Source of the DNA: a virus
IMG/VR virus record: IMGVR_UViG_3300035523_000117
Location: 18,587 to 82,586 of that record
Strand: one strand, 5' to 3'
Length of the DNA stretch: 64,000 bases
Position numbers and translations under genes: made by a program. The notes below the pieces were generated by a model, which made no database searches, had not been told where the DNA came from, and saw only the letters and a list, made by a program, of their open reading frames with translations. Shown here one piece after another: positions 43,582 through 63,383 of the stretch (its first letter is position 1; each line of letters opens with the position of its first letter).

Positions 43582-44010
43582 TCAGTCGAGCGCAAGAGGG
43601 TCGTCGCTGCGGACGGAACTCCAGGTACTTCGTTGCTCGGCCCAGTCCGCCCGTCGTCCCGTCGCCCGCAGGTGGATTGCCGTGATGGGGTCCGGCCCGG
43701 CGTCGATCGCCGGGAGGAACAGGATGGCCTCCTGGATGTCGGGCGCGAGCAGGGTCAGCCCCATGATCTGCGTGACGCGCGCCCGCGTGAGGCCGTAGCG
43801 TCGCGCCAGGTCGGCGAGGTCCTTCGCCTCGCCGCGGTCGAGCATGCGCTGGAAAAAGTGGGCCTGGACGAGAAGGCGGGTAACGCGAGGAACGCGTCCG
43901 GCCACCGACTCGGGTGCGTGGCGCTCTCCCTCCTCGAGCTTCCTGCCCCGGGAGGCACCGCCCTGCCGCGTCAGACACACCTTGAACTTCACCGTCGTGT
44001 CGGTGTCCAT
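43582..44010 (-). CDS. HTH accessory protein of the serine recombinase
   Basis: This 142-residue protein overlaps the recombinase stop by one base and contains a clear helix-turn-helix, DLARRYGLTRARVTQIMGLT, followed by LLAPDIQEAILFL. A small HTH protein directly after a large serine recombinase is a recurrent arrangement in proteobacterial mobile elements. It may act as a recombination directionality factor or transcription regulator; this is inferred. Confidence 0.7.
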   Translation of the reverse strand: MDTDTTVKFKVCLTRQGGASRGRKLEEGERHAPESVAGRVPRVTRLLVQAHFFQRMLDRGEAKDLADLARRYGLTRARVTQIMGLTLLAPDIQEAILFLPAIDAGPDPITAIHLRATGRRADWAEQRSTWSSVRSDDPLALD

Positions 44011-45581
44011 CAGGCAGCCTCCTTGGTGTTCTTCGGCGCGTCCAGCAGTGCGACGCCTGCGGGCGCGAGCGCCATCTCCAAGTCACCGACGACGCCGTCG
44101 TAGGCGATGCCCTCGATCAGTAGATGGATGATGCGGGCCTGCTCGAGCGGGGTGAGGTGGTCCCAGACCGAGTCGAAGAGCTTCACGAGCTCCGCAACCT
44201 CCTCCTGCCCTGCTGGGGATCTCTCCAGCGAGTGGAGCCGCTCGGCAATCTCTGCGAGGCGCACCTCGATCTGCTTGGCCTGCTCCTCCAACTCGCCGAG
44301 CCGCTCGCCGACGAACCTCCCGTCGCCGCCGGTCTGCCCCGCCAGCGTGGCGAGGAGTGCCTTGGCCTCGGCGCGGCAGCGCTCGAGGTCCTGGGCGAGC
44401 AGGTGCTTCTCGGCGGTGAGCGCGGGGACGTCCTTCAGGCGCTGCGCTTCGAGCTGGGCGGGGAGCCGTTCGAGGACCTCGCGGCTCTTGGCCATGCCGC
44501 GGACCTTGTCGACCACGAACTTCTCGAACGCCTCGGCCGGCACCGAGCGCACGTCGCAGGCGCTGGTGCCTCGGTGGTGGACGGCGTTGCAGGCGTAGTA
44601 GCGGTAGACCTTCCGGCCCTTGCGCGAGCAGACGGAGGTCATCACCGAGTTGCAGCGGGTGCAGCGGATGAGCCCGCGGAGCAGGAAGCCGTGCCGGTTG
44701 CTGGAGGAGCCCTTCGAGTCGGCCCGCGCGGCGGCGAGGCGGTCCTGCACCTTCTTGAAGACGCCCGCGTCGACGATGGCCTTGTGCTCGCCGGGGTACA
44801 CCTCGCCGCGGTACTCGACCTTGCCGATGTAGGTGGGGCTCGCCAGCAGCCGGCGCACAGTGCCCTTGGTCCACAGGCCCCCGCCGTGCGGCGTCCCCTT
44901 TTTCGTCCTCCAGCTCTTGAGCCGCGCGCCGCGCCCGTTGAGGATCTCGGTCACTCGCAGGAGCGACTGCTCCTTGAGGTACAGCTCGAAGATCTCGCGG
45001 ACCAGCGCGGCCTCGGCCTCGTTGACCACCAGCTTGCCGCCCACGACGTCGTACCCCAGGCCCGGCATGCCGCCGACCCATTTCCCCTTCCGGCGAGCGG
45101 CGCCCATCTTGTCCCGCGTGCGCTCGGCGATCATCTCGCGCTCAAATTGGGCGAACGAGAGCAGGACGTTGAGGATGAGCCGCCCCATCGAGGAGGCGGT
45201 GTTGAACTGCTGGGTCACCGAGACGAACGAGATGCGGTGCTTCTCGAAGACCTCCATCATCTTGGCGAAGTCGAGCAGCGAGCGGGACAGGCGGTCGACC
45301 TTGTAGACGACCACCGCGTCGACCCTGCCGGCGGCGATGTCGGCCATCAGGCGGGCGAGCGCGGGCCGGTCCATCGAGCCGCCGGAGAAGCCGCCGTCGT
45401 CGTAGTGGTCGGGGACCAGCTCCCAACCCGCGGACTTCTGGCTCAGAATGAAGGCCTCGCCCGACTCGCGCTGGGCATCGAGGCTGTTGAACTCCTGCTC
45501 GAGCCCTTCCTCGGTGCTCTTGCGGGTGTAGATGGCACAGCGAACTCGGGTGGGCGCTGCCGTGGGCTTGGTCGTGGTCAT
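44010..45581 (-). CDS. Large serine recombinase (integrase)
   Basis: This 523-residue protein has a resolvase domain with nucleophile Ser in CAIYTRKSTEEG (residue ~22), FSGGSMDRPAL, VVYKVDRLSRS and a QFEREMIAERTRDK hinge helix. A recombinase domain follows, then a zinc ribbon (CTRCNSVMTSVC...CNAVHHRGTSAC), a long coiled coil and a final AYDGVVGDLEM segment. Large serine integrases insert phage or ICE DNA by attP x attB exchange. The gene is intact and should be active. ATG 45581 overlaps the upstream stop (ATGA). Confidence 0.92.
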   Translation of the reverse strand: MTTTKPTAAPTRVRCAIYTRKSTEEGLEQEFNSLDAQRESGEAFILSQKSAGWELVPDHYDDGGFSGGSMDRPALARLMADIAAGRVDAVVVYKVDRLSRSLLDFAKMMEVFEKHRISFVSVTQQFNTASSMGRLILNVLLSFAQFEREMIAERTRDKMGAARRKGKWVGGMPGLGYDVVGGKLVVNEAEAALVREIFELYLKEQSLLRVTEILNGRGARLKSWRTKKGTPHGGGLWTKGTVRRLLASPTYIGKVEYRGEVYPGEHKAIVDAGVFKKVQDRLAAARADSKGSSSNRHGFLLRGLIRCTRCNSVMTSVCSRKGRKVYRYYACNAVHHRGTSACDVRSVPAEAFEKFVVDKVRGMAKSREVLERLPAQLEAQRLKDVPALTAEKHLLAQDLERCRAEAKALLATLAGQTGGDGRFVGERLGELEEQAKQIEVRLAEIAERLHSLERSPAGQEEVAELVKLFDSVWDHLTPLEQARIIHLLIEGIAYDGVVGDLEMALAPAGVALLDAPKNTKEAA

Positions 45582-46051
45582 GCTGCACGCTCCTTGGAGT
45601 TGAGGAGGTTGAAGAAGCCGAAGCCGTTCCAGCGGGTGCCAGTGATCTTCCGGGCGATCTCGGAGAGCGAGGCGAAGCGCTCGCCCTGGTAGTCGAAGCC
45701 GCCCTCGAGGACGGTGACCTGGTGCTCGGCGCCGCGGAACTCGCGCACGAGGACGGTGCCGACCGGCGGAAGGCGCGGGTCGCGCGGCGGCGGCGCGTTG
45801 GGCAGCGGCGGCAGTGGCCGGCGGACGTAGACCTCGAAGTCGGCGAGCAGCTCGTCGAGGCGCTTCTTGGCGCGGTCGCTCAGGCCACCGAACTCCTTCT
45901 CCTGAAGGCGGTAGGCGATGCGGCGTTGCAAGTAGTCCTTGTTCCGGCTGCGGGAGTCCTCGCCGAACAGGCGCTTCCATATGTCGCGAAGCTCGCCCAT
46001 CGACAGGGTGCGCAAGCGGTCCAGGCCGGCGGCAGTGATCGTCTTGGCCAT
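45578..46051 (-). CDS. DUF2924 protein with RAMA-like domain
   Basis: This 157-residue protein has DUF2924 N-terminal helices (LRTLSMGELRDIWKRLFGED; DYLQRRIAYRLQEKEFGG) and a C-terminal RAMA-like domain (RDPRLPPVGTVLVREFRG; ERFASLSEIARKITGTRWNG). DUF2924 genes are commonly found next to serine recombinases, as here. The C-terminal domain recurs in the accessory proteins at 25664-26299 and 62071-62724, which suggests that the element uses one DNA-recognition module in several proteins. Confidence 0.8.
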   Translation of the reverse strand: MAKTITAAGLDRLRTLSMGELRDIWKRLFGEDSRSRNKDYLQRRIAYRLQEKEFGGLSDRAKKRLDELLADFEVYVRRPLPPLPNAPPPRDPRLPPVGTVLVREFRGAEHQVTVLEGGFDYQGERFASLSEIARKITGTRWNGFGFFNLLNSKERAA

Positions 46052-46132
46052 GCTCTCTCCTTGTGTTGTCCCCTTCGCGATGGACGCTCTGGTGCCCAGC
46101 GATGGCAACGGCAACCGCGCCCTCCGCGTGAC

Positions 46133-46318
46133 CTATTGGAGCGGCGGGGACTTGCCTTCCGGCGGCGCGGATGGCTGGCGGGCCTCGAGCGCGCGAGCGA
46201 GGCCGAGTGCGAGGAGCGCGAGCACCTCGTCGAGGCCTGGGACGTGGTCCGCCTTCTTAGCGGGCGCGGGCGCAGGGGATGAGGCGGGAACCGCAGGCAG
46301 GGTCTCAGGCGAGTCCAT
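46133..46318 (-). CDS. Small proline/alanine-rich protein in the integrase operon
   Basis: This 61-residue protein (MDSPETLPAVPASSPAPAPA..., then LDEVLALLALGLARALEA) has one amphipathic helix between Pro-rich ends. ATG 46318 follows GAGGTAACA, and a TGTCAC-type leader precedes it on the minus strand. It is the first gene of the DUF2924-recombinase-HTH operon. Family unknown. Confidence 0.55.
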   Translation of the reverse strand: MDSPETLPAVPASSPAPAPAKKADHVPGLDEVLALLALGLARALEARQPSAPPEGKSPPLQ

Positions 46319-62724: not shown

Positions 62725-62891
62725 GCTGACGACAGCCGGGAGCGCCACGAGGGCGCCGGGTGCTCTTGCGAGAGCGCTCGGCGCTCTTCGCGTTGGGTCG
62801 AGGCGCTCAGGAGAGCCTGCGTGCAACAGCCGTTGCGGAGCCGCCCAACCAGAGCGAACACGCCCATGCCCAACGGCCCATGGAGGCAGCC

Positions 62892-63320
62892 ATGCCCAAG
62901 AAGACGAAGCAGAGGAAGTTCGACCAGGTCAACCACTTCGAGCAGGAGCAGCACCCCGTCGACGTCGCGATCGCGCGGCGCCCCGAGGTGCGCGCGCTGC
63001 GGGAGCAACTCAGCGAGGAGAGCAAGCGGTTTGCCAAGGCCCTCGGCAGTGGCCGCCTGCGTGCATGGCTCGCGTTCGAGGAGAAGTGGCTGGCCTACTA
63101 CGGCACCCGCGAGGAGCTGATGTTCGACCAGGGCTACGAACACGGCTTCGCGACCGGCCGCGCCGAGGGCATGAAGAGCGCTCCGGAGGCTCGCCGCCTT
63201 GCGGCGCTGCTGCGCGATCTCGCAATCCAGGACGGCTGCCCGAGGGAGAAGGCGCTCGCGGCGCTGCTCGAGGCGGCGTGGTCCCTGGTGACGAGGGGGA
63301 AGCCGGCGCGCAAGAGGTGA
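62892..63320 (+). CDS. Helical protein of the accessory module
   Basis: This 142-residue protein starts MPKKTKQRKFDQVNHFEQEQ after GGAGGCAGCC and is almost entirely helical (RALREQLSEESKRFAKALGS; LAALLRDLAIQDGCPREKAL). It ends with a basic tail. No family is recognised. A partial copy of its 3' end lies at 63600-63672. Strong terminator 32 bases downstream. Confidence 0.6.
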   Translation: MPKKTKQRKFDQVNHFEQEQHPVDVAIARRPEVRALREQLSEESKRFAKALGSGRLRAWLAFEEKWLAYYGTREELMFDQGYEHGFATGRAEGMKSAPEARRLAALLRDLAIQDGCPREKALAALLEAAWSLVTRGKPARKR

Positions 63321-63351
63321 CCCGCCGGTTTGTGTCCCGCGCGCAACGCGA

Positions 63352-63383
63352 GAGGCCCCGGAGCGACGCCGCTCCGGGGCCTC
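63352..63383 (+). terminator. 14-bp perfect GC-rich terminator
   Basis: GAGGCCCCGGAGCG (63352-63365) pairs perfectly with CGCTCCGGGGCCTC (63370-63383) over loop ACGC, shortly after the stop of the preceding gene. It resembles the terminator at 26325-26354 after the left RAMA gene. Confidence 0.75.

Follow-up and report, generated by a model that had tools for sequence, protein, structure and literature searches.

The window analysed here, a stretch of 64,000 nucleotides (bases 18587-82586 of the 82,586-bp IMG/VR record IMGVR_UViG_3300035523_000117, such that the end of the window is the end of the contig), contains two related phage elements: a left prophage (L), which extends from approximately 5.3 kb of the record (locus L009) to approximately 26.4 kb of the window, and a right element (R), which runs from 43582 to approximately 63.3 kb. 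They are separated by around 16 kb of chromosome-like DNA containing long open genes (an RHS repeat protein, a subtilase and others). We are reasonably confident that R is a reduced, probably defective prophage with a defence-like gene. Coordinates are window positions unless a locus label is given (e.g. L011:3949), and the limits of both elements were set by gene content, not by att sites: a search for att repeats recovered matches of 9-10 bp only and, given this and the coincidence of window end and contig end, 63383 is not established as the boundary of R.

Gene blocks shared with and lost from the left prophage

The homology and collinearity of R and L, proposed in an earlier sequence-only reading of this DNA, are borne out by matches that follow the same gene order, with amino acid identities of 46% for the integrase and 66-69% for a replication-type protein (Rep), and nucleotide identities of 69% for the TerS region, 80% for TerL, 76% for a helix-turn-helix (HTH) gene, 84% for part of the scaffold, 83% for the capsid, and 78% for the terminal gene and the DNA upstream of it. 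The TerS candidate (56158-56829, plus strand, 223 aa) is open and is a homologue of L 3199-3867; it is assigned from its position, and its sole PHROG match is to a transcriptional regulator (E 0.0008). TerL (56826-58316, plus strand, 496 aa) is likewise open, and shares with L a GRGxGKS motif, D181-E182 and D306, which in our alignment are largely also found in one distant relative, and which we take to be key residues.

The absence of virion genes from R also stood up to scrutiny, as portal, protease, sheath and tape profiles built on the related prophage G005 (see below) and run over all six frames of the window matched L alone. Connectors had no dedicated profile search, and the L stretch containing the neck gene has no match in R by nucleotide alignment. 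Both junction lengths given in the sequence-only reading are exact. A 35-bp junction (59084-59118), where portal and protease are gone, separates the stop at 59083 of a second small HTH-like gene (58844-59083, plus strand, homologue of L 5528-5755) from the scaffold start at 59119, and 135 bp lie between the capsid stop at 60397 and the next start at 60533. The gene that follows, previously described only as an unrelated accessory gene, proves to be a full-length homologue of the anti-phage defence protein PD-Lambda-4_B (60533-61441, plus strand, 302 aa), with residues 1-298 matching positions 1-303 of the 303-position PADLOC profile at E 2.5e-65. Nucleotide alignment brackets the lost tail block with two anchors (L 10463 = R 60382; L 25070 = R 61492), such that about 14.6 kb of neck and tail genes in L correspond to about 1.1 kb with the defence gene in R. 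Since homologous flanks are present on either side, the missing tail genes do not merely lie past the end of the contig.

The remaining head genes are themselves altered. What had been read as a scaffold gene (59119-59388, plus strand) is indeed homologous to the scaffold part of the protease-scaffold gene (414 aa in L, 407 aa in G005), yet it is only an 89-aa stub, from which the protease domain and around 300 bp of scaffold are missing with the frame kept; its start corresponds to that of the internal scaffold part, and the middle of the scaffold has been lost in frame. Similarly, the Mu gpT-like major capsid coding region (59460-60397, plus strand) is not the single intact gene that had been supposed, as its coding is spread by two +1 frameshifts across three frames (59460-59690, 59677-60072 and 60074-60394), each with gpT-type matches. 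DNA alignment to L places one extra base near 59684 and another near 60070. The R pieces match PHROG 371 and the L pieces match Pfam Mu-like_gpT; the L capsid has insertions of its own near 9871 (against R) and near 10062 (against G005).

Sequence at the junctions offers a potential route for these losses. In R the scaffold is led by GGAGCAAGCC-ATGCCTGA, which is similar to the beginning of the protease gene in L, GGAGCAAGCCGATGCCTGAG; the start of the internal scaffold part in L, GGAGCCGCAGATGCCCGAG, is a look-alike. Furthermore, the R capsid leader has CACGnAGGAGAAGCCATG in common with the L decoration gene, and also keeps the GCGCACG of the capsid leader. Recombination between such short look-alike starts would cleanly remove protease and decoration, although the likeness of the leaders lends this weak support, because ribosome-binding sites look alike in any case. 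Nevertheless, two of the clean junctions coincide with short look-alike starts of translation, and could therefore have arisen without selection, by deletion between short repeats.

Between the small HTH gene and the portal, L (5753-5802) and G005 (L011:4548-4598) each have short repeats with a 10-bp period, in the same place and of unrelated sequence, which are missing from R and which possibly represent a packaging or operator site.

Relatives, frameshifts and rates of change

The relative G005 (the prophage of IMGVR_UViG_3300035523_000125; loci L011, L053 and L054; 51,684 bp) comes from another metagenome and is close to L, with approximately 80-88% nucleotide identity over most of the module. 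Its genes for TerL (464 aa), portal (449), protease-scaffold (407), a decoration-type protein (144), capsid (313), neck (170), sheath (566) and tape (624) are all open, and its structural genes follow the order in L. R resembles G005 at 73% (TerL) and 79% (capsid) amino acid identity, with the same gene order from TerS through capsid. The shared region ends in all three elements with the same DUF2924-like gene, past which the sole further match of G005 to L or R is a DUF2924 ORF (open reading frame; L054:3487-3948) around 17 kb on. The sequence-only reading had raised the possibility that R is a phage satellite, and had named the presence of the missing genes at this locus in related genomes as evidence against it; in G005 these genes are present and open.

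Conversely, recurrence of the reduced gene set among relatives, which would have favoured a satellite, was not observed: no second record with the gene set of R was found among IMG/VR matches (queries: TerL, the left capsid piece, the defence gene, the terminal gene, exact R capsid DNA, Rep and an R capsid piece), among GTDB matches (queries: TerL and the G005 capsid), or in TerL searches of 377 and 395 genomes. The nearest matches to the R capsid piece, at 83% over the piece and 62% respectively, are G005 and IMGVR_UViG_3300044712_001509, both of which have a portal and a protease gene. TerL matches at E 1e-40 or better occur in 3 of the 377 genomes in the phylum of locus L046 (35-36% identity) and in 1 of the 395 in the phylum of L047 (33%), while a set of 50,697 annotated phage records contains 167 with a TerL match, the best 20 of the 167 at 33-38% identity. 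The 377 genomes were also searched with the subtilase for a clue to the host, which gave no match, in a search that had no positive control. When G005-derived profiles for portal, protease, capsid, TerL, sheath and tape were run over 44 loci, 38 gave a capsid match, of which 25 also match portal. Of the 13 gpT-capsid loci without a portal match, 8 have less than 3.1 kb upstream of the capsid, and L030 shows a portal end at the locus edge in a laxer search; no portal was seen, laxer search included, in the DNA covered of L034, L036, L013 and L044. Six of the 13 (L013-L016, L043, L044) have a protease-like match downstream of the capsid, and a Mu-type transposase is present in L013, L014 and L015, the first of which has a serine-integrase-like gene at its end. 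We did not use these portal-less loci as precedents for R, as their gene sets differ.

L was described as a fuller relative of R, which is correct in that it possesses the genes that R is without, yet as sequenced it is itself frameshifted. Open homologues (from G005 for 12 genes, from R for Rep) were aligned with 13 L genes, of which 8 contain net +1 indels, 16 in total with no net -1 seen, spanning 4838-22061 of the window together with L009 at around 18095; one of the 16 (6387, in the portal gene) lies in a poorly aligned stretch. The remaining gaps within L genes are multiples of three, apart from edge effects where the end of portal overlaps the start of protease and where the Rep stretch is cut. 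When the two R capsid frameshifts are included, all 18 are net +1. The L blocks also contain four in-frame stops. Two of them, 20210 and 20216, are next to the frameshift at 20229, where a block ends; the stop at 17141 interrupts the tape gene and has a 3-base gap on either side; and 24770 falls in a small gene that evolves fast. Up to two of the four could be true nonsense changes. A codon-model scan additionally proposed -1 shifts in the flank at 32983, 36274 (antisense to a gene) and 37203, where ORFs are open, and many shifts at gene overlaps or in antisense, all of which we took as noise.

Long neutral decay in bacteria favours deletions. The pattern in L, which combines strong constraint with +1 shifts only, is unlike such decay, and the simplest reading of its cause is insertion-type sequence error. 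However, frameshifts do not occur evenly along the sequence: chromosomal ORFs of 1606, 848, 1006 and 1260 aa (about 14 kb, with no homologue aligned) are open, as are the early genes and TerL of R and the approximately 12 kb of R coding DNA upstream of the capsid, and uniform sequence error consequently does not fit. The +1-only shifts may thus reflect either a sequence artefact or an odd mutational process. As sequence error is possible, L may be more intact than is apparent, and so may the capsid of R.

The ratio of nonsynonymous to synonymous substitution rates (dN/dS) had been suggested as a test of terL and capsid, and gave an intermediate answer: in pairwise comparison with G005, R exceeds L for both TerL (0.29 against 0.10) and capsid (0.37 against 0.13), yet remains well below 1. 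The L tape gene, for comparison, gives 0.165. Over 1227 three-way codons, the ratio of nonsynonymous to synonymous changes is 299:184 on the R lineage (stem included), where the synonymous count is presumably underestimated owing to the long R branch, 39.8:79.2 on the L tip and 31.7:78.3 on the G005 tip. In the N-terminal part of TerL, polarised with 9 outgroups, R shows 5-18 changes, the L/G005 stem 3-8 and either tip 0-4, such that R ranges from about equal to more than four times faster; it is faster with 3 of the 9 (chi-square 8.0, 5.9 and 4.8). One of 13 columns in this part that are at least 90% conserved is changed in R alone, and at 45 conserved capsid columns R differs at 10, and L and G005 at 9 each. 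Both R genes thus appear somewhat loosened, TerL more clearly, and do not resemble long-dead pseudogenes. With TerL open and dN/dS elevated yet well short of 1, whatever decay has taken place is recent or partial.

The remaining genes of R

The left end of R is occupied by a small ORF (43582-44010, minus strand; PHROG 14161, annotated as a recombinase) downstream of an open large serine integrase (44010-45581, minus strand) with Resolvase, Recombinase and zinc ribbon domains, which is adjoined by a DUF2924 protein (45578-46051, minus strand). A 294-aa ORF (46726-47610, minus strand) has a weak C-terminal match to an HNH endonuclease PHROG and no Pfam match. On the plus strand there follow a sigma-70 region 4-like regulator below the Pfam cut-off (48490-49260), the 1010-aa open Rep (49257-52289), the function of which is suggested by its place and by weak matches and the L homologue of which is frameshifted, an open 535-aa fusion of ParB_N and DNA methylase (52695-54302), and two ORFs of no assigned function (54299-54922 and 54919-55572), the second with partial homology to L 1103-1534. 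Between TerL and the second HTH-like gene lie an 85-aa protein (58353-58610, plus strand), a homologue of the G005 ORF L011:3949-4320 with 61% identity over 76 aa, and a further small HTH-like protein (58607-58840, plus strand; Pfam E 0.054, below cut-off).

Beyond the defence gene, an apparently non-coding block (61501-62070) is shared with L 25080-25663 and ends in an 88-bp leader. Around 480 bp of it (61501-61970, against L 25080-25560) are 78% identical overall and 84% over 233 bp, have no match in G005, and contain an inverted repeat, CCGCTCGCT/AGCGAGCGG. An Rfam search of this DNA gave no match, and the predicted fold of 61530-61800 is no better than that of shuffled sequences (z -1.14, not significant). 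Copies of this leader, of about 88 bp, stand directly 5' of terminal accessory genes, next to their start codons, in L, R and G005 (24410, 25557, 61967, and L053:5254 and 4408). In R it precedes the DUF2924-like terminal gene (62071-62724, plus strand), a homologue of which closes the shared region at the right end in both L and G005, and an ORF of no assigned function (62880-63320, plus strand) lies near the right end. An 81-bp stretch occurs in two copies of 89% identity near the right end of the contig, the first (63216-63296) inside this ORF and the second at 63594-63674.

Interpretation and comparison with known systems

The sequence-only reading placed a satellite beside the plain alternative of a decaying prophage, and it is the latter that the evidence better supports, given the split capsid, the scaffold stub, the failure to find portal, protease, sheath or tape in R, the open state of the missing genes in G005, and the lack of a second R-like record. 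Under this interpretation, R, L and G005 would form a single uncharacterised lineage, with a gpT-type capsid and a sheath-bearing (myovirus) tail, and with serine integrases in L and R (the G005 contig starts inside the module). Whole blocks, comprising portal and protease, decoration, and the region from neck to tail, would have been lost from R, perhaps by deletion between short look-alike start sites, and a lone PD-Lambda-4_B gene, for which a role in defence is predicted, would now stand in place of the tail block. The loss was probably fairly recent. R may still excise by means of its own integrase and may benefit its host through the defence gene, but, judging from the genes it is missing, should make no infectious particle alone.

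Several observations weigh against this interpretation. The TerS candidate and TerL are open, with the key residues of TerL kept, and each R junction either respects a gene edge or keeps the frame. The R capsid frameshifts, like the 16 in L, whose proteins are strongly constrained, are all +1, and so may be sequence errors, in which case the capsid would be whole. Furthermore, 6 of the 9 outgroups show no clear acceleration of TerL in R (chi-square at most 2.7), and for the capsid, with 13 outgroups, R shows 6-15 changes against 4-11 on the L/G005 stem (either tip 1-3) in mixed direction: the nearest outgroup, L012, gives 15 against 5, and three outgroups give R fewer changes than the stem. 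Finally, a portal is likewise not seen in the DNA covered at some distant loci with a gpT capsid, albeit with a gene set other than that of R.

The alternative that survives best, although we consider it unlikely, is that R is a phage satellite, which would supply its own TerS, TerL, shortened scaffold and capsid, and borrow portal, protease, neck and tail from a related phage; the shorter scaffold might then give a smaller head for a genome of approximately 20 kb. Open terminase genes, low dN/dS values and the possibility that the frameshifts are errors keep this weakly alive, and the in-frame scaffold remnant, deletions at gene edges, the mixed rates of the capsid, and the integrase, replication-type and defence-like genes of R would suit it. 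It has to contend, however, with a capsid split as sequenced, with the failure of the IMG/VR scans to reveal a second copy, with the frameshifted state of L, the only visible helper, and with the lack of any detected portal, protease or connector, all of which are encoded by capsid-forming phage-inducible chromosomal islands (cf-PICIs) as described in PMC10690885. There is a rather small chance that R represents a new kind of satellite, which supplies terminase and shell only, takes the rest from a resident relative, and carries PD-Lambda-4_B in the old tail slot. If a working portal-less satellite were real, two genomes would share the building of the head, with the portal vertex as the dividing line, an arrangement not found in the satellites described in PMC10690885.

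Slimmer still is the prospect that R is a domesticated island kept for host defence, in which PD-Lambda-4_B, and perhaps the leftover TerL and capsid, would interfere with related phages. A full-length defence homologue in the tail slot and continued constraint on TerL are consistent with this. However, PD-Lambda-4 is a two-gene system, and no A partner was found among the matches listed for the 18 R ORFs scanned with PADLOC, which include the neighbours of 60533-61441 (for 52695-54302, the best 25 of 66 matches). A P-loop NTPase domain is listed for PD-lambda-4 in PMC10952713. Least probable of all is that R is partly a chimera or assembly product, with false deletions and frameshifts derived from reads of two related prophages or from insertion-prone sequencing, since its points of appeal, the one-directional frameshifts (unlike ordinary decay) and the open chromosomal ORFs, are outweighed by a divergence of approximately 16-31% between R and L in most matching segments, at which reads should not collapse, by the R-specific sequence across the portal/protease and capsid/defence junctions, and by the long open stretch before the capsid and uneven spread of frameshifts, which uniform error does not fit.

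Considered as a remnant, R is an example of whole virion modules lost with tidy gene edges and with a defence-like gene in their place, and it carries the warning that clean junctions alone are no proof of selection. In its head genes, R is reminiscent of Mu-type phages (gpT capsid, gpI protease-scaffold), as Mu-like_gpT matches the L capsid pieces, Mu-like_Pro matches the L protease-scaffold, and the R capsid matches a gpT-type family. Unlike Mu, however, L and R have a serine integrase and would not transpose, and the L protease domain is a Clp-type match.

Like R, both cf-PICIs and the Streptomyces satellites MulchRoom and MiniFlayer, in the account given by PMC10690885, keep terminase and capsid genes and are missing tail genes. 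According to the same source, cf-PICIs have genes for capsid, head protease, portal and connectors as well as for the two terminase subunits and an HNH endonuclease, and MulchRoom and MiniFlayer encode a portal with connectors or an adapter; none of the portal, connector or head protease genes was found in R, and its capsid, unlike theirs, is split as sequenced. Of the remaining cf-PICI features, R has gpT-like capsid coding, the division of which over three frames may be an artefact, an open TerL, a TerS placed by position and the weak HNH match at 46726-47610, and its gene set does not recur as a conserved reduced set in the searches above. Consequently, with neither portal nor protease by search and no match to the neck stretch, R is not a cf-PICI as defined in PMC10690885. 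It could nevertheless work in a satellite-like manner, owing more to its helper than cf-PICIs do.

G005 and L carry portal, protease, decoration, neck, sheath and tape genes, whereas R, in which none of these was found, has PD-Lambda-4_B. Cryptic (defective) prophages are characterised by loss of whole modules, remnant structural genes and a retained cargo gene. R, which is homologous to an intact prophage (G005) and is missing essential virion genes, shares the module loss, the remnants and the cargo gene; as signs of gene disruption and relaxed selection, its split capsid, its raised dN/dS and its mixed relative rates are ambiguous. It differs from cryptic prophages in its open TerS candidate and TerL, and in a dN/dS that is still well below 1.

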